From contig RXJR01000015.1 of NCBI GenBank assembly GCA_003963305.1, forward strand, positions 124,001 through 188,000: a DNA stretch of 64,000 bases, read 5' to 3'. The translations under genes and the position numbers were made by a program. Numbering within the stretch: the first letter of the stretch is position 1; each line of letters begins with the position of its first letter. Shown here piece by piece: positions 7,152 to 26,955 of the stretch. The notes under the pieces are model-generated. The model ran no database searches. It saw only the letters and a program-made list of their open reading frames with translations, and was not told where the DNA came from. Origin of the DNA: Candidatus Melainabacteria bacterium (GTDB taxonomy: Bacteria; Cyanobacteriota; Vampirovibrionia; Obscuribacterales; Obscuribacteraceae).

Positions 7152-8498
7152 TTAAGAAGGGAAGAGCAAAATCGGCGTCGTCATCGTCTTCGCTGTCTCT
7201 TTAGCCTGACGAGCCGCCGCAATCAAAACTTCCGGATCGTCGCAAGTCTGCGGCATCGTCGCCATCCCTATAGCGGCAAGCACACTCTCATTGCGACTGC
7301 TTGACGACAACGGTTCACTCGTTAAGGCAGTATGCAAGGTCTGAGCCCAAGACGAGACTGCAGCACTATCCAGACCCGGTACTATTGCAGCGAATTCACC
7401 GCCGCTCAGATGAGTGACGATATCGAACTCGGTTGCCACTGTATTGATACGCTCGATAATAGTCGGCAGAGCGACAGCCGGTAAAGCGACGTTCTCATAA
7501 CCAATTCGCAAAGCGACCTCGAACACAACGACTGCAAACGGCGTCCTGGCGCGTTTATAGAGCGCCTGCTCTCTGAACAAGAAATAGACGAATGTCGCAA
7601 AAGAGTGCAAAGTGGTGTTCGGGTCGATCAAGCCCGAGCCGACCCTGTCGATCAGAGTCACATCCAGCTTGATTGGCGGAGGCAGTGGAACCCTTGGAGC
7701 GGTCGGCTCCGGAGCAACGACAGGAGCAGGTGCGCTAGCCTGTGGCTGCTGTGGATGCTGGTGGGCTGGTGCGGTCGGGGCTGCTTGAGAGGCGGCCGGG
7801 ACCTCATCGACAACCGGAACCTGATCATTCGGCAGGGGAGCTGCCGGCTTCGGTGAGCTGGCAACGGGCTGAGCCGTGCCTGGATGCAACGCCGGCATAT
7901 TGGTTTTGGATGCATTCGGATTGAAAACCGGAGGTTGAACCAGCCCATCGGCCCAGTTCTCACCAAAAGCTGGTGCTATCTGCGGTGGCGCCTGAAAGGC
8001 ATTGATTGCCTGTTGTTGAGATTGAGCAAAGAAAGTGTTGGCAGCCGGCGCAGCTACGCTCTCAGGTGAAGCGACGGCGCCCGGAGCAAGTGGATTGTCT
8101 ATGTCAGAGCCGCCGCCGATGTTGACCTGCAAAGACATGGGCTGAGACGGTATTACCGTCTCGGTTTCACCATCTTGCGGAACATATTGAGTATCGATCT
8201 TAATTTTGTTCTGCACCATCAACACATCTTCAGAGTTGCGATTCCACAACCTGGCTGCGTTTGGTCCATCGCCTCTCAACAAGGTCCAGGCTGGGGGATT
8301 TTTGTTGCCGACCGACAAAACGAGCTTCACAACAAACATTTGATGGTTGCTCGGATGTTCAAAAGGTAACTCAATCGTCTTGCCGATCCGTTTTTGCCCT
8401 TCAGCGATTGCGTAACGCAAGTCATCAGTTGTCGGCACCGAATTCATTTTCGGCAACCGAAAAACTTGTGAAGTGCTCAAGGAATCGTATAAAGGCAT
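7152..8498 (-). CDS. Unknown N-terminal domain, Pro-rich linker and degenerate GGDEF domain
   Basis: 448 residues. Residues about 14-105 form a domain shared with the protein at 13654-15120. Common features in order are R-L-P-x5-P, E-x-P-(F/W), Q-x-F-V and P-x-W-T-L. Residues about 130-270 are a Pro/Ala/Gln-rich linker. Residues about 280-445 align with a GGDEF domain: D-P-N-T in place of D-P-L-T, F-E-V where D-x-D is expected, and S-G-G-E-F at 365-369 instead of G-G-D/E-E-F. Metal-binding acidic residues are lost, so it is unlikely to make c-di-GMP and may act as a receptor or scaffold. It converges on proC with a 7-base gap. Confidence 0.75.
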   Translation of the reverse strand: MPLYDSLSTSQVFRLPKMNSVPTTDDLRYAIAEGQKRIGKTIELPFEHPSNHQMFVVKLVLSVGNKNPPAWTLLRGDGPNAARLWNRNSEDVLMVQNKIKIDTQYVPQDGETETVIPSQPMSLQVNIGGGSDIDNPLAPGAVASPESVAAPAANTFFAQSQQQAINAFQAPPQIAPAFGENWADGLVQPPVFNPNASKTNMPALHPGTAQPVASSPKPAAPLPNDQVPVVDEVPAASQAAPTAPAHQHPQQPQASAPAPVVAPEPTAPRVPLPPPIKLDVTLIDRVGSGLIDPNTTLHSFATFVYFLFREQALYKRARTPFAVVVFEVALRIGYENVALPAVALPTIIERINTVATEFDIVTHLSGGEFAAIVPGLDSAAVSSWAQTLHTALTSEPLSSSSRNESVLAAIGMATMPQTCDDPEVLIAAARQAKETAKTMTTPILLFPS

Positions 8499-13653: not shown

Positions 13654-15120
13654 ATGTATAAACCTAAAAAAGAAGAGAATAATAATCCCGTCGTCACCAA
13701 CCGCCAGAGACTGCCTGTAACGGCAGCGATGCCGGGACTGAAAGCCATTCAGGCACAATTCGATGCCGCCGTACACAGGCGCGGACTTATTGTCGAACAG
13801 CCATGGACGACCAGCGTTCCAAAACAACAGTTTGTTCTCATGGTGCAGTGGGATGCCAGCGCCGAATTTCCGCTCTGGACACTCTATGAAGAAAACGCCA
13901 ATGAATCGAAGATGCACTGGAGTCAGACATTTCCGCCCAGTGACGTGCAACTGATGTACGACGTTCTATCGATGTCGGTTGAGTCACAAGCTGGTCAGGG
14001 CAGCTTCAAGATACCCGACGAGCTGAAGCCAAAAGACGATTTTGATTTAGCCAGGCCCGAACCGATAGAGGCCAAACCCGCGGTGGCACCACCGCCGCCA
14101 CCGCCCCCTCCTCCACCGCCTCCGGCACCTGTAGCAGCTCCTGTTCAGCCGCCACCTCAGCCATATCCGGCTCCGGGAGGCTATCCGCAACCGCCACAGG
14201 GCTATCCTCAACCGCCTCAAGGATATCCTCAGGCAGCTCCAGGATATCCATCGCCGCAGGGTTACCCGCCAGGATATCCGCAGCCCGGTTATCCTCAACA
14301 AATGCCAGGCTATCCACCAGCCGGATATCCGCAATATCCACCCCAACAAGGCTACCCGGCGCAGGCTCCCGCACAGGCCCCGGCTCCGCAGCCGAGCCCA
14401 CGGCAAGACTCGATCTGGCAATCGGGTTATGCACCGACCTCACAACCGTCCCAGAGCGGCGCCTCGAAAAGTGCAGGCGACGACTTGAGACCGATCGACT
14501 ACAACATGATGGACAAACGAGCCAACGTCTTACTTGGCACGTTGCTTGTCGAAGCAGGTTTAGTCACTACACCTACATTAAACGCAGCTCTGAAAATTCA
14601 AGAGCTTGTACGCGATGAAAAGATGGACCAGGAACAAGCTTTTGATGCACTGAAACGCCTGCACTCAATGGGTGGGGCCATCGATAACTACCTGAGCCCA
14701 ACTGATTTCAAGTCAGGGAAAGTGAACAAACCGAGGCCGCCTCAAACCAGCGGTGGTGGCAGTGCGCCATCATCTGCAGGTCAGCCGCCACGATCAGGAG
14801 CAGTCGACCCGGAAAAACAGCGAGAGATGATGGCATCTTTCGACCTCTTACAAAAAGCCGGATTACTCAACGAAGCTGACCTGAAATCGGCGCAAGCAGT
14901 GCGTTCGAAACATGGCGGCGATATGGTGCAGATTCTCAAATCAGCCGGAAAATTGGAAATGAAGACATACGAAGCGGCTGTGACTTGCATTCGTCTGATA
15001 CACGTCGGCAAAATGAAAGTCGAACAATGCATTATCGCTTTGAACTACTGCAGCCGCAGCAGAGTGGGATTCGATGAAGCAATGGAAGAACTAAACTGGC
15101 CAAATCCGAAAAAGTCCTGA
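13654..15120 (+). CDS. Unknown N-terminal domain, GYPQ-rich linker and MshEN-like modules
   Basis: 488 residues. Residues about 19-110 are homologous to the N-terminal domain of the protein at 7152-8498 (R-L-P-x5-P, E-x-P-W, Q-x-F-V, P-x-W-T-L in the same order and spacing). Residues about 130-260 are a low-complexity linker with a poly-Pro run and repeated G-Y-P-Q. Residues 294-345 ([11 protein letters not shown]) and 396-485 resemble the repeat modules of the protein at 23152-24441 and the MshEN/GspE N-terminal fold. The second module is complete. No enzyme motif is present. It is probably a cytoplasmic signalling adaptor or nucleotide receptor. The EF-hand gene follows after 36 bases. Confidence 0.72.
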
Positions 15121-16179: not shown

Positions 16180-16390
16180 CTAATTCCTCAACTGTAAAAC
16201 CCAGACTATTTACTGCACACTCTCACTCTAGCCAGTAATTTTGGCAATTTGCTGGCAGCGCCTCGGCCTGGTCAAATCAGATCGATTATCTGACGGAGCA
16301 AGTGCAAATATCGGTCAGCCCGTGCCTGAACCATAACTAGGCTTGTTCTTGGGTATACTGTTTGGAAAGGACGAGGCACACAGGCTTCTG

Positions 16391-18460
16391 ATGGGCAAAA
16401 ACATCCTACTTCTAGACGACGACAAGCAGTTTTGCAAACTGATGGCCTCGGTGCTAGAGGGGCGCGGGCACAAAGTCTTGCAAGCCGACAGCGGTGAAAA
16501 GGCCTGGGAAACTCTAAACAAAGAGAATCTCGACCTGGTTATCGTTTGCGGACCACTGCCAGACAAATCGGGCGTAGATTGGATAAGCGAGGTGCGTGCC
16601 AAGGGCAACGACATACGCTGTGTTTTTGTCGGGCAATCGCAGAAAGATGTGCAGATAAATAAATCCAAGCTTGAAAACGAGCTTGGCATCTCGCTTATCG
16701 TTCATAAGCCTGTGATTCCATTTGTCTTTGGCGCCCAGATAGAAGGTCAGTTCGCCGAGAGTGCCTCTGCTCAAGCGGGCAAACTGAAAGATTTCGAAAC
16801 GATGTTTCTGGCGCTCGTAACAAAATATGCTCACCTGTTGCCGACAAAATTGAATGACCTGTCTGCAGCAATTCAAAAAGCGAAAGCAGATCCGAATAAT
16901 AAAGATCTGGTTGGCGAAGTGCGCGCACAGGCTCACAAAATCAAAGGCACGGGAGGCTCGCTGGGTTTCAGAATGGTCGGGGAAGCAATGGCTTTCATCG
17001 AACAAGCAGCCGTGGCGATGCCAAGCAAATCTCACGAAGAACAACAGATTTCCTGGGCCGAAATCGACAGAAAGCTGATCGAAGCTCAGGCGGCAGGCGA
17101 AATGGAGGCACGCGAAGTTGCCTCGGTGGTAGCCGGTAAAGACGAAGGTTCAAGTGCCGAGCACGAACCAGCTATGGCGAGAATATTAGTCGTCGACAGC
17201 GATCAGGAATTTCTCAATCTGATCGAAGATCTCGGTCGCGAGAGGCTTGTGGAAATCGTTAAAGCACTGAACGTCACCGAAGCGCTAAACAAGGCGTGCC
17301 TGCTCCCTCTCGACGCGGCACTGGTAAATGTCGTGCAAGACTCAGCCGAAGAATCGTTCAAACTGGCGAGACAACTGCGAGAGCTGCCTGGTTACGAGAA
17401 CCTTCCTCTGGCTTTCATTTCAGGCGATGCAATCGGCAAAGACCGCGTTGAAGCCGCTCATGCCGGTGCTTCTCTATATCTCGACAAACCACTGCAATCA
17501 GATTCGCTCGAGACCGCTGTTCAGCATCTCGTCGCCATCAGACAGGGCGGTCGGCCGCGCATCTTAATCACTGATGACGACGAATTTTTCGCCAACACAG
17601 TCGCCCTCACCTTGCGCAACGAAGGCATGATTGTGCGCACCTTGCTCGACCCGACAAAAATTCTCGACGTCATGCAAGATTTTCCACCCGACATGCTGCT
17701 TCTCGACGTAATGATGCCAGGCATCACAGGCTTCGAAGTCTGCCGTATGCTCAGACAGGTACCGCGCTGGCAAGACCTGCCAATCATCTTCCTGACTGGA
17801 CAAACCGGTGTTGATGCTCGCGTCGAAGCCTTCAGATCTGGCGGAGACGACTATCTGCCAAAACCGGTAGTGAACGAGGAACTGCTTACCCGAGTCAAAG
17901 TAAGACTGGACCGCTCCAAACTTTTGAAAGAACGTTCAGACAAAGACACAATCACCGGTCTCTTGCTGAGACGGGCATTTTCAGAGCACCTCACCGGAAT
18001 GATCGCGGAAGCCCAGCGAACAAATTCTGGTTTCTCAGTTTGCTTGCTTGACGTCGATCACTTCAAAAAAGTGAACGATACGTACGGTCATCTTGCCGGC
18101 GACAAAGTACTGGCCGGGCTCGGACAGCTGCTTTCCCGCAGATTCCGAGTCGACGATCTACGCGGGCGCTGGGGCGGCGAAGAATTCATTCTCGCCTTTA
18201 GAAGAGAAGCAAAAGAGACGATGCATGCAGCCGTGCTGCGCGTTTTAGACGAATTCAGCGACATGACTTTCGTCAGTGATGAAGGTAAAGAATTTCACGT
18301 CAGCTTCAGCGGTGGTCTGGCTACTTTCCCGGAAGACGGCGAATCAGTCTACGACCTGCTTCAGACAGCAGACAGAAGACTCTATGAAGCGAAACGAGCC
18401 GGCAGACGTCGAATCGTTTTAAACGATCCGGATCCAGCGGCTGTTCCGACTACGACTTGA
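16391..18460 (+). CDS. Hybrid response regulator: REC-Hpt-REC-REC-GGDEF
   Basis: 689 residues from the ATG at 16391 (the frame is open to 16343). Receiver 1 keeps the acidic D-D-D pocket but has Cys where the phosphoacceptor Asp belongs (V-I-V-C-G-P). An Hpt domain has its His at H182 in H-K-I-K-G-T. Receiver 2 is degenerate (Asn at the acceptor position, V-N-V). Receiver 3 is intact with D439 in L-L-L-D-V-M. The GGDEF domain has G-G-E-E-F at 595-599 and an R-x-x-D inhibitory site at 586-589. The protein should make c-di-GMP, controlled by phosphorylation of receiver 3 and possibly by Hpt relay. No cognate kinase is adjacent. Confidence 0.93.
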   Translation: MGKNILLLDDDKQFCKLMASVLEGRGHKVLQADSGEKAWETLNKENLDLVIVCGPLPDKSGVDWISEVRAKGNDIRCVFVGQSQKDVQINKSKLENELGISLIVHKPVIPFVFGAQIEGQFAESASAQAGKLKDFETMFLALVTKYAHLLPTKLNDLSAAIQKAKADPNNKDLVGEVRAQAHKIKGTGGSLGFRMVGEAMAFIEQAAVAMPSKSHEEQQISWAEIDRKLIEAQAAGEMEAREVASVVAGKDEGSSAEHEPAMARILVVDSDQEFLNLIEDLGRERLVEIVKALNVTEALNKACLLPLDAALVNVVQDSAEESFKLARQLRELPGYENLPLAFISGDAIGKDRVEAAHAGASLYLDKPLQSDSLETAVQHLVAIRQGGRPRILITDDDEFFANTVALTLRNEGMIVRTLLDPTKILDVMQDFPPDMLLLDVMMPGITGFEVCRMLRQVPRWQDLPIIFLTGQTGVDARVEAFRSGGDDYLPKPVVNEELLTRVKVRLDRSKLLKERSDKDTITGLLLRRAFSEHLTGMIAEAQRTNSGFSVCLLDVDHFKKVNDTYGHLAGDKVLAGLGQLLSRRFRVDDLRGRWGGEEFILAFRREAKETMHAAVLRVLDEFSDMTFVSDEGKEFHVSFSGGLATFPEDGESVYDLLQTADRRLYEAKRAGRRRIVLNDPDPAAVPTTT

Positions 18461-23151: not shown

Positions 23152-24441
23152 ATGAATACTTTGGGAAGCAGCATGCTAATTGGCGACCTTTTAAGGGGCG
23201 CCAAACTTATTCAAATTCACGATCTTACTAACGCAGTACAGGTAGCGAGCAAAACAGGGTTGCCTGTAGGAAGAGTGCTCGTCATGCTCGGGCTGGTGAC
23301 AAGCGAAACCGTTCATGCGGCGCTACAAGCTCAATCACTCGTGCGCGATCGGCTCATAACGATGGAAGTGGCTACCAAAGCAATTGGTATGGTGGCAAGC
23401 TATCGCATCGATCTGGAACGGGCGCTCGAATGCTTAGGCTCATTGCCAGGACGAGAATTTGAAACCAACAAGCTGGGCGACTTACTCGTGCTCGCCGGGC
23501 TGATTACTAATGATTGCCTGGTGGAATCTCTGAAAACCAGTCAACATCTCAATTTACCGCTTGGGCGTATCCTCGTGCTGAAGAACATCCTCAAGGAACA
23601 CACAGTCGAAGCAGCACTTAATGCTCAGGTGCTACTGCGCGATGGAGTTATCGACCGCAAAACAGCAGTGGCTGCATTGAAAAACGCCAGGAAAACACAT
23701 ACATCTCTGGAAAGCTGCTTGACTGCAGCCGGAGTAGACTCAGGCAACAAGCGCCAGACGATAAGGCTGGGAGAGCTCTTCGTACTCGCCGAAATAGTCA
23801 CCGAGCCAGACCTTCTGGCAGCCGTGGAAATAGGACTCAACGAAGGCACTCAAATAGGCCAGGTCCTGATGCAATTTGGTTTTATCAACAGCGATACACT
23901 AGAGACTTCACTAAAACTACAAGAGATGGTGCACAAACACTCGCTCTCAGTCTCACAAGCCGTGCAGGTGCTGAGACTATATCTCCAGGGTGTCGACATT
24001 CCTCATGCCATTGCCAGCATCGCCGAACCTGAAGTCAATCCGGTGCAGGCGGTAGGATTAGCTGAGGTCCTCTATCTATCAGGGTTGGTGCCTCAGGAAG
24101 ATACAGAAAAAGCTTTAGCAATCAGCTATGCCAGTCGCATTCCATTCAACAAAGTTTTGCTGCAATACAACATGATCAAAGAGGAAGCGTTGAATGTTGC
24201 CACCCGCTGTCTTCTTCTCATGGGAGAGAATCTGCTTACTGCCGAAGAAGCAATCGTAGCCATGCACCACTGCATATGGAGCGGCACTGAGTTAGTTGTG
24301 GTTCTTAGCAAAATGGGCTGGCTGGAAGAGCAACAACGCAAAGAAAATGAAGACGCGCTTCCAATCTTGCTTGGTGACACTCCAATAACATACACCCCTC
24401 CACCGACGCCTGAATTCAACCCAACCGCTTCGATCTGGTAA
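23152..24441 (+). CDS. Protein of four ~98-residue MshEN-like repeats
   Basis: 429 residues from the ATG at 23152 (AGGG nine bases upstream). The protein is built of four repeats starting near residues 10, 108, 206 and 303, a period of 97-98. Each has two L-G-x-L-L-x-x-A-G-L-I-x-x-x-x-L half-motifs followed by a helical tail (L-V-R-D-x-x-I, then A-x-x-A-L). The half-motifs match the two 24-residue halves of the MshEN/GspE-N fold, which binds c-di-GMP in MshE. The third repeat (R-L-G-E-L-F to S-L-K-L-Q) is closest to the binding consensus. There is no ATPase domain, signal peptide or membrane segment. Confidence 0.75.
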   Translation: MNTLGSSMLIGDLLRGAKLIQIHDLTNAVQVASKTGLPVGRVLVMLGLVTSETVHAALQAQSLVRDRLITMEVATKAIGMVASYRIDLERALECLGSLPGREFETNKLGDLLVLAGLITNDCLVESLKTSQHLNLPLGRILVLKNILKEHTVEAALNAQVLLRDGVIDRKTAVAALKNARKTHTSLESCLTAAGVDSGNKRQTIRLGELFVLAEIVTEPDLLAAVEIGLNEGTQIGQVLMQFGFINSDTLETSLKLQEMVHKHSLSVSQAVQVLRLYLQGVDIPHAIASIAEPEVNPVQAVGLAEVLYLSGLVPQEDTEKALAISYASRIPFNKVLLQYNMIKEEALNVATRCLLLMGENLLTAEEAIVAMHHCIWSGTELVVVLSKMGWLEEQQRKENEDALPILLGDTPITYTPPPTPEFNPTASIW

Positions 24442-24453
24442 ATCAAAGTCTAA

Positions 24454-26955
24454 CTAAGCAAGCCGGTTAGTTGGCACCCAGAGCAAAACAACCGAGTTGA
24501 CCTGAATATTAGTTTTCTTGGGCGCAATGGAAGTCGACTTGATTGAATCGAGATGCGACTGCATCTCTTGATTGAGCCGATTCACTTCGCCATCGAACTG
24601 ACTTTGCATGTCTTCGAACTGCTCTCTCAAGCTCTGCAAAGATTCAAGTGCTCGTTCCGAATCTGCTTGTTTTTGGGAGGCGCGACTCACTCTCCTTGCG
24701 GCCGTCGTCGCCTTGTTAATGGTGCCGCTTCCAAGCGGTCGACGTGAAACCATAGCACCAAAAATAGTGGCACCAACTGATATCATCGAATGCAGTTGTT
24801 CATCCCGTGATTCTTGCGCTTGCCGCTCTGAACGTTGCTGAGCGATTCGCATCCGCTCCTCCAGAGCATTCAGTTTGGGAGCATATTTAGTTCTCAACTT
24901 CTCCTTCAGCTGATCTCGCAGTTCGTTCAACTTCTGCTGCACTCGAACACTAAACGCTCCTGGCTGCTCATTTGGCAGCGAGTACATTTGCAACCCCGGA
25001 CAACACAGCAACTGATACTTTTGGGATTGACTCAGCCAGACGGCAAACGATTTAGACCAATTTTTGTAATTGACTTCTTGACAGAGAGCACTGGGAGGTT
25101 CAACAAAACTCGCGCCAGGTTCCGGCTCGGAATTGAACTTCTCGATTGTATACTTCACAGCCTGTGCATCACTCCAATTGAAGGTAGCACCATCACCGGT
25201 GACATTGGCGATGAAGGCTTTCGAAACAGTTTCATCAAGCTGCGTTTTCGAATCTGTAAACCGAATTGTTGCCGAGGCATACAGAAATGGCTTGTATACG
25301 ACCGATGCATCAGACAAAATGCTTTGCTTGGAAGGCAAAAAATACTGTTTAACGGCAGGAGGTAAAGCGGGCCGGATAGCCGATTGATTCAGCCCGGTCG
25401 GTTGATTGGGCGCGACGGACTGCGGATTCGCTCCGGTCGATTGATTCGTTGCGACGGACGGCGAATTCATTGCAACGGATCGATTTGTCACTGCATCCAC
25501 ACCTCCGCTCCCGTCTGGAAGCCGAGCTTGTTTACCAGCCATCAACGCCTTGATTTGCGCCTTCATCAGCGGTCCACGCAAATAAGACAAAGTCCAACGA
25601 GTTTGGAAAATTTCAGGGCGACTCTCATGCACATTATTCATCAAGAAAACTCGCCGACCAAGCCCGGACAAAATCTTTTCCATTTCCTGTCGATCGAATT
25701 TGCCACCGGTTTCTGCCGTTGCACCCTCAAGACCTTCCAAAACGCGCATCTTATCGCGCTCCGTCTGCAGTCTGCCAATAAACCAGGTGCCTGTATTTGC
25801 CAGACCTTTGTAATCAAGGTCAACCGGGTTTTGTGTAGCCAGTATCAAACCCAAACCGTATGCACGAGCTTGCTTAAGCAAAGTCAAAAGTGGCTGCTTC
25901 GATGGAGGATTGGCGACAGGAGGGAAATAACCAAAGATCTCATCCATGTACAAGATAGCGCGCAGGCTGCTTGTGCCAGATTGAGAACGCATCCAGGAAA
26001 CCATCTGACCGAGCAGGAGGGAGACAAAAAACATGCGTTCCGTGTCACTCAAATGAGCGATCGAAAAGATGCTCACCTGCGGTTTACCGCTCTCAGAGTG
26101 CAGCAACTTACTTATGTCGAGCGGTTCTCCAGAAAGCCAGGCATCGAAGCCCGGCGCCGCTAACAGATTATTGATCGTCATAGCCAATTCGAACCGGTCT
26201 TTAGAAGGAAAAAACGACTCGATGTCTATAGCACCAACTTGCGTCATCGGCGGTTTCTGAATTTGCAAAATGATTTCGGGCAAAGTCAGATCATCACCCT
26301 TGCGCCAGGCTCGGTCCAGAATATTCGAAAGCAAGATATGCTCTCGACTCTTCAACGGATCGACGTTACCGCCCAGCAAAGCCAACAAACAATTGGCAGT
26401 AGTAACGACACGATCTCGCATTGCTTCACTATCTTCGATGACTTCTCGAGGCGGAGATGAAAGTGACTGCAAAATCGAAATCGGAATTCCGGCAGTACTT
26501 CCCGGCGTATAAATCTTGAAATCAGCGGATGACTTAAGCAGCTTGATCCGCTCTGCACTCTGCCCCCATTCCGCCAGACCAGTTTTCCAAGCCATTGCTT
26601 GCTGCTCGGCAAATTGCCCGGGAGTGAGATTTTTCTGCCTCGCTTCATCAGCATTGACCCAGGGCTCAAACTCCTCAACACTCAGATTGGGAAAGGTCAA
26701 CAACAGATTCGATAAATCACCTTTGGGATCGATGGCGATCACAGGAATATTGTCGATTGCCGCCTCTTCAACGAGATCAAGGCAGAGACCTGTTTTGCCG
26801 CTACCAGTCATGCCAATGCATACAGCGTGGGTCAGCAAATCGCGACAGTCATACAAAACCAGCTCGTCTGTTGTTTTCTCGGCTCCTAGGTCGTATCGAC
26901 GACCAAGATAGAAGAGTCCCAGTTTCTCAAAATCCTGACTCAGCGCCACAGTCAC
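24454..26955 (-). CDS. HerA/VirB4-like ATPase with coiled-coil C-terminus
   Basis: 833 residues, GTG start with GAGG eight bases upstream. The Walker A motif is G-M-T-G-S-G-K-T near residue 48. Walker B is I-L-Y-M-D-E, and the A-T-Q-N-P sensor region follows, as in HerA-FtsK ATPases. A 13-residue repeated linker (around 25394-25471) separates the ATPase from a C-terminal domain with a long coiled coil (about residues 715-820). No NurA nuclease, secretion or conjugation gene is nearby, so its role (DNA translocation, repair or defence) is open. It follows a TPR lipoprotein gene by 13 bases. Confidence 0.85.
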   Translation of the reverse strand: MTVALSQDFEKLGLFYLGRRYDLGAEKTTDELVLYDCRDLLTHAVCIGMTGSGKTGLCLDLVEEAAIDNIPVIAIDPKGDLSNLLLTFPNLSVEEFEPWVNADEARQKNLTPGQFAEQQAMAWKTGLAEWGQSAERIKLLKSSADFKIYTPGSTAGIPISILQSLSSPPREVIEDSEAMRDRVVTTANCLLALLGGNVDPLKSREHILLSNILDRAWRKGDDLTLPEIILQIQKPPMTQVGAIDIESFFPSKDRFELAMTINNLLAAPGFDAWLSGEPLDISKLLHSESGKPQVSIFSIAHLSDTERMFFVSLLLGQMVSWMRSQSGTSSLRAILYMDEIFGYFPPVANPPSKQPLLTLLKQARAYGLGLILATQNPVDLDYKGLANTGTWFIGRLQTERDKMRVLEGLEGATAETGGKFDRQEMEKILSGLGRRVFLMNNVHESRPEIFQTRWTLSYLRGPLMKAQIKALMAGKQARLPDGSGGVDAVTNRSVAMNSPSVATNQSTGANPQSVAPNQPTGLNQSAIRPALPPAVKQYFLPSKQSILSDASVVYKPFLYASATIRFTDSKTQLDETVSKAFIANVTGDGATFNWSDAQAVKYTIEKFNSEPEPGASFVEPPSALCQEVNYKNWSKSFAVWLSQSQKYQLLCCPGLQMYSLPNEQPGAFSVRVQQKLNELRDQLKEKLRTKYAPKLNALEERMRIAQQRSERQAQESRDEQLHSMISVGATIFGAMVSRRPLGSGTINKATTAARRVSRASQKQADSERALESLQSLREQFEDMQSQFDGEVNRLNQEMQSHLDSIKSTSIAPKKTNIQVNSVVLLWVPTNRLA
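25394..25471. repeat. 39-bp tandem repeat in the ATPase linker
   Basis: Two units (25394-25432, 25433-25471) with a further partial copy. The unit is 13 codons, so the frame is kept and the product has two copies of an N-x-x-S-V-A-x-N-Q-x-T-G-x linker. Confidence 0.7.

Follow-up and report, generated by a model that had tools for sequence, protein, structure and literature searches.

MshEN_N is a domain by which bacteria sense c-di-GMP, and in many bacteria the GGDEF proteins far outnumber the known c-di-GMP receptors. The window analysed here, a stretch of 64,000 nucleotides from a Candidatus Melainabacteria genome, encodes a standalone protein (P0001) of four MshEN_N-type units (Table 1), which raises the question of whether such an array still reads a nucleotide and what it does with the signal.

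Table 1. Features of P0001 and of its surroundings in the window.
Feature	Position in window	Strand	Description
P0001 ORF	23152-24441	+	429 aa, standalone, four MshEN_N-type units
Unit 1	23176..23469	+	residues 9-106; core 9-61 (L9, G11, A32, P38, G40, R41, Q61), tail 62-106
Unit 2	23470..23763	+	residues 107-204; core 107-159 (K107, G109, S130, P136, G138, R139, Q159); conserved R163 in tail
Unit 3	23764..24054	+	residues 205-301; core 205-257 (R205, G207, G228, Q234, G236, Q237, Q257)
Unit 4	24055..24351	+	residues 302-400; ligand positions gone (A304, N333, L354); predicted fold like units 1-3
C-terminal extension	24352..24438	+	residues 401-429; predicted disordered (pLDDT ~40); least conserved part of P0001
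Second family member	13654..15120	+	488 aa; MshEN-like units confined to residues 286-480
Hpt / three receiver / GGDEF protein	16343..18460	+	GGEEF intact; in the conserved block of P0001, two genera
TPR protein directly upstream of P0001	22133..22783	+	adjoins P0001 in two genera; candidate partner

The NCBIfam model NF053729 (c-di-GMP motif, MshE-related) matched P0001 in five stretches with 108.7 bits (cut-off 38, E = 8.6e-32), and a profile of the unit retrieved PilF (5e-24), MshE (3e-9) and PilB among solved structures. A Pfam search of P0001 matched neither the T2SSE ATPase nor the full-length MshEN, PF05157 giving zero matches at E <= 10, and a Walker A motif was sought in the protein and found absent, which bears out the first-pass annotation of four MshEN-like repeats of ~98 residues with no ATPase. 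The NfrB models PRK11234 and PRK15489 were matched in part, with 27.1 bits against a cut-off of 1170 and 56.1 against 537. The published relaxed motif was passed by motif II of unit 1 and motif I of unit 2 and failed by the other six half-motifs, partly because it disallows Ala and Gly at position 24.

Possible alternative in-frame starts of the gene lie at GTG 23086 and ATG 23173. Comparison with an orthologue of 90% identity showed saturated synonymous sites and a pN of 0.07; by this measure, strong purifying selection acts on P0001. A fragment or pseudogene of a T2SS/pilus ATPase was ruled out by the intact ORF, the purifying selection and the absence of an ATPase relic. The downstream HerA-like ATPase gene is convergent with P0001, with 12 bp separating the stop codons (window 24441-24454), and no terminator-like hairpin was found between the two.

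Self-identity of P0001 peaked at lag 98 (0.19), and the four 53-residue cores shared a mean pairwise identity of 0.267, compared with a mean of 0.073 and a maximum of 0.126 in shuffles (n=2000). All four cores have the same layout in register, 24+5+24, that is, two 24-residue motifs joined by a 5-residue spacer. The 98-residue units start at residues 9, 107, 205 and 302, confirming the period read at first pass from starts at 10, 108, 206 and 303. Two half-motifs per unit, also claimed there, are seen in units 1-3; unit 4 is degenerate, with both key glycines gone.

In the full-length AlphaFold2 model each unit folds into six helices, and the pLDDT inside the units is mostly 75-88; the pTM of 0.32 yields no packing of the units against each other. 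Unit 2 modelled alone reached a pLDDT of 77.9 and a pTM of 0.63, and in the structure ranking its top eight matches were all MshEN or GSPII (Z 8.3 to 6.6), with Z falling to 5.0 at the first unrelated entry. The best single-unit matches include MshE and PilF domains with c-di-GMP bound, and comparison with 5htl_B gave an rmsd of 2.2 over 60 in the ranking and 0.8 over 53 columns in a Foldseek superposition. In the models, the four-helix bundle of MshEN_N is predicted for the P0001 units, and the alpha/beta MshEN_C subdomain (three strands after the bundle) is not, as neither the full-length nor the single-unit model contains a strand. As helical bundles go, a Z close to 8 is a modest value, and the assignment rests on the structure ranking together with the sequence evidence; both support the MshEN fold, for which structure prediction and comparison had been named as the test.

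The helical tail described at first pass as lying beyond the basic MshEN fold is present, but it is related to the rest of the unit. Helices 5-6 aligned with helices 2-3 at an offset of exactly 49 residues (hhalign probability 92, E = 5.7e-7 for a single comparison), lag 49 ranked top among lags 30-69 across 79 family proteins (z 4.1), and in the model the helix pairs 120-133/169-182 and 137-143/186-192 lie in register at this offset. Judged by alignment and model, the tail is a copy of helices 2-3 that has diverged.

Foldseek with the full-length model placed designed alpha/alpha toroids first, and toroid packing was set aside since a TM of ~0.16 and an rmsd of ~20 are uninformative. A further likeness links the bundle (P0001 residues 104-166, window 23461-23649, and 296-361, window 24037-24234) to the class II fumarase/aspartase C-terminal domain (Z ~5.4-7.2), and several paralogues show weak Pfam FumaraseC_C matches. 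The fumarase/aspartase structures rank below the MshEN structures and are missing from the single-unit structure list; the likeness may reflect either distant kinship or just a common way of arranging helices.

P0001 is far from alone. The search for a family of standalone repeat proteins, suggested at first pass, revealed it as one of dozens of paralogues per genome. In the source genome (7.48 Mb, 44 contigs), NF053729 marked 82 places and the unit profile 41 proteins with 112 units, at least 16 of these proteins having four recognisable units; the count of 41 takes in a few ordinary MshEN proteins, such as the T2SSE-type L046. Family units are fused to TPR (L038, L040, L041), Ser/Thr kinase (L048, L071), DnaJ (L052), LRV repeats (L069) and GGDEF (L045). 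L048 and L071 are Ser/Thr protein kinases with the MshEN-like units C-terminal, and L045, combining a GGDEF domain with an MshEN motif (residues 272-390 and 499-555), is a possible self-sensing diguanylate cyclase.

Matches to P0001 at E <= 1e-5 were found in 51 of the 53 genomes of the order, with up to at least 36 per genome, and every genome of the order among those listed in the class sample matched the family profile. A scan of the genome collection with P0001 added one near relative, MAG SZAS-4, whose NCBI lineage gives the phylum Cyanobacteriota and nothing lower. Outside the order, family matches were mostly single and weak, nearly all unit-profile matches ended at about position 58-80, mostly within proteins of ~670-800 residues, and no complete 98-residue unit was found in the phylum sample. 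Within that sample, the family is restricted to one order.

The four units do not descend from a recent expansion. In the four-unit proteins, the nearest relative of a unit stood at the same position in another protein in 313 of 315 cases and in the same protein in none, and units 2, 3 and 4 each form nearly one single split in the unit tree; therefore, one ancestral four-unit protein was duplicated whole. A recent or homogenising repeat array was ruled out by the same pattern, no unit having its closest relative in its own protein. On this phylogenetic footing, the four units are old, specialised and non-equivalent.

Pocket conservation, followed in 79 four-unit proteins (316 units), divides the array in two. 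In units 1-3, G3 and G32 account for at least 94% of aligned residues and Q53 for 94-96%, while unit 4 has G3 in 28/79, G32 in 42/79, Q53 in 30/79 and both glycines in 26/79. P0001 follows the family, with the third-position glycines of both motifs in units 1-3 (G11/G40, G109/G138, G207/G236) and A304 and N333 in unit 4. Units 1-3 exceed unit 4 in conservation by 1.44 bits at pocket positions and by 0.27 bits elsewhere (P = 5e-6), and the three positions with the largest excess are 3, 53 and 32. Unit 4 is nonetheless conserved between orthologues and keeps its predicted fold despite the loss of its pocket residues; because it has the same predicted fold without them, the glycines and Gln-53 appear unneeded for folding.

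The remaining ligand positions have changed in a fixed manner. The first Gln, at position 24, is replaced by Ala/Ser, Ser and Gly in units 1, 2 and 3 (A32, S130 and G228 in P0001), the second Arg, at position 30, is Pro in 91%, 94% and 62% (P, P and Q in P0001), and position 33 is Arg in units 1 and 2 (78% and 95%) and Gln in unit 3. With alignment ends filled in, position 1 is Arg/Lys in 51/79, 65/79 and 74/79 of units 1, 2 and 3, and Leu in 20 copies of unit 1, P0001 among them, which reads L, K and R in its units 1-3. Arg/Lys/Leu at the first position is thus present in motif I of these units and absent from motif II, and the last-position Gln is kept in motif II and lost in motif I. Family-wide, the canonical set Arg/Lys-Gln-Arg/Lys-Gln occurs in 0/316 units. 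The prospect raised at first pass that the Arg/Gln ligand positions might be absent from all units has not been borne out: position-1 Arg/Lys/Leu and Gln-53 persist in units 1-3, although Gln-24 and Arg-30 are lost.

Published binding data show how such changes may be read. In MshE, the glycine and leucine contacts are the most important for c-di-GMP binding, and glycine changes abolish it, whereas changes of Arg9, Asp12 or Gln32 cost at most 5-fold (PMC5013675). PilF GSPII-B, in which the two Arg are replaced by Lys and Leu, binds at 6 nM (PMC11731258); in a PilF GSPII-A construct, binding of c-di-GMP was abolished when position 30 carried Ser rather than Arg (PMC12002112). XpsE has lost both glycines and retains the fold (PMC5013675). 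The reading we prefer, and to which we give about even weight, is that P0001 is a non-catalytic receptor-adaptor of the c-di-GMP pathway in which three pockets are re-tuned and the fourth unit is structural. The binding of several ligands, proposed at first pass, is possible for units 1-3, because their position-1 Arg/Lys/Leu and Gln-53 are kept with Gln-24 and Arg-30 lost, and is unlikely for unit 4, as far as residues can tell.

The same substitutions could be read as a farewell to the ligand: the MshEN fold would be kept as a helical protein-binding surface, and the array would be a ligand-free scaffold gathering partner proteins. The loss of Gln-24 and Arg-30 throughout, the non-binding precedents PilF GSPII-A and XpsE, the PilB N-terminal domain of the MshEN kind in complex with a PilZ protein (7lko, 7lkm) and the fusion of some family members to TPR and DnaJ all speak for this. 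It leaves unaccounted, however, why the glycines and Gln-53 are maintained in units 1-3 but not in unit 4, whose shared fold indicates that folding does not need them; XpsE likewise folds without both glycines (PMC5013675). We regard this scaffold as a serious competitor, though an unlikely one.

Which nucleotide the pockets would read is suggested by the genomic setting. The source genome contains 37 GGDEF domains and one PilZ. Over 53 genomes, family copy number (among the matches listed, with at most ~33 scored per genome) followed the number of GGDEF domains with a Spearman coefficient of 0.82, or 0.70 as a partial value given genome size; over 25 genus means the partial value was 0.73, and these statistics ignore kinship. 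Receiver-domain counts, which are first-look candidates among the matches listed (<=70), also correlate with copy number but more weakly (partial 0.39 and 0.48). Counted over four genomes, 13 family genes have a GGDEF domain no more than 2 kb away, where 3.1 would be expected. The domains nearest to family genes are in part degenerate, lacking the GGDEF residues, and the proximity therefore shows a linkage of the systems rather than a direct supply of c-di-GMP.

In the window, the second family member is two genes upstream of the Hpt/receiver/GGDEF protein. The block around P0001 is kept in a second genus (L114) as GGDEF protein (intact GGEEF)/TPR/TPR/DUF2207/TPR/P0001/HerA-like ATPase, with 43% identity for P0001. 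Elsewhere, at L057, near C9:327505-327972, a GGDEF-like domain without the GGDEF residues (FDGNT) lies 76-79 bp from a convergent four-unit gene, and G209 and G232 have pairs of this kind at similarly short distance. Several half-GGDEF proteins are encoded in the source genome, some adjoining MshEN-like genes, and a weak match to the C-terminal GGDEF half only was seen at window 7185-7469 on the minus strand, in the ORF 7152-8498.

A receptor re-tuned to another nucleotide, such as cGAMP or a single guanine nucleotide, would also explain an asymmetric pocket with a small residue at 24 and Pro-30/Arg-33, and the substitutions are indeed position-fixed and non-random (Ala/Ser, Ser and Gly at 24; Pro at 30; Arg, Arg and Gln at 33). 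Canonical MshEN binds cGAMP weakly, but it does not bind GMP, GDP or GTP (PMC5013675), and both copy number and neighbourhood indicate the GGDEF system, which makes this reading improbable. A c-di-GMP sink, in which dozens of proteins with three sites each would buffer rather than transmit the signal, can point to the number of units in one genome but is very improbable, since the old non-equivalent units, the dozens of paralogues and the diverse fused domains of output type argue for specific partners and favour a sensor or adaptor.

Returning to the receptor-adaptor, as to c-di-GMP binding, ligand identity and the output step we infer that the re-tuned pockets of units 1-3 would most likely bind a guanine dinucleotide, c-di-GMP foremost, and that unit 4, the duplicated tail helices and the upstream TPR protein would most likely relay the state to a target protein. 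Paralogues with TPR, kinase or DnaJ would be variants with built-in output. By multiplying the family, the order would have responded to its wealth of GGDEF proteins, and the family may be its main set of c-di-GMP-pathway receptors. Counted against the receptor-adaptor are the lack of any canonical unit, the degenerate nearby GGDEF domains, the low pTM of the full-length model and the Arg-to-Ser change at position 30 of GSPII-A (PMC12002112), where P0001 has Pro or Gln. A bolder version, which we consider rather doubtful, makes the family the order's own receptor class, whose fixed four-unit array would read c-di-GMP or another guanine dinucleotide in parallel through three asymmetric pockets and whose paralogues would distribute the signal among different targets, for the most part in place of PilZ.

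The order as a whole pairs dozens of GGDEF domains with multiplied, lineage-restricted MshEN-type proteins. For Myxococcus xanthus, 22 MshEN genes were quoted in 2016 (PMC5013675), compared with the 41 proteins here, the two counts having been made by different methods. The four units control for one another, a conserved pocket being present in three and absent from the fourth, and the ligand question is directly testable on single units, which would show the range over which the MshEN pocket can be re-tuned. In the open-access literature searched, no description of the four-unit family in this order was found.

Among known systems, MshEN_N of Vibrio cholerae MshE (PDB 5HTL) shares the 24+5+24 motif and the four-helix bundle with P0001, and both glycines, the hydrophobic pocket positions and the last Gln with units 1-3. 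Different from MshE, P0001 has neither the ATPase nor the alpha/beta MshEN_C, its first Gln and second Arg are replaced, and it bears the extra helices 5-6 and four units per chain. PilF of Thermus thermophilus has three tandem GSPII domains, of which B and C bind and A does not; it too strings MshEN-type domains in tandem, and it tolerates Lys at position 1 and Leu at position 30, but it is a traffic ATPase and its domains form no 98-residue all-helical array. NF053729 covers the 53-residue core only, the 98-residue unit and the four-unit array lying beyond the model, and NfrB contains an MshEN domain together with a glycosyltransferase that P0001 lacks.

Further parallels in architecture are L031 and L036, from cyanobacteria outside the order but in the same phylum, which are standalone proteins of ~208 aa with tandem MshEN-type motifs and no ATPase. 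They differ in having three 53-residue motifs spaced ~57 residues apart, with Arg at every position 1 and no tail helices. MshEN domains, the tandem GSPII domains of PilF and the occurrence of standalone tandem motifs in other cyanobacteria are already known. The novelty lies in a unit of 98 residues, in a fixed array of four such units whose positions are not equivalent, in a pocket re-tuned in a fixed manner and in how far the family has expanded.
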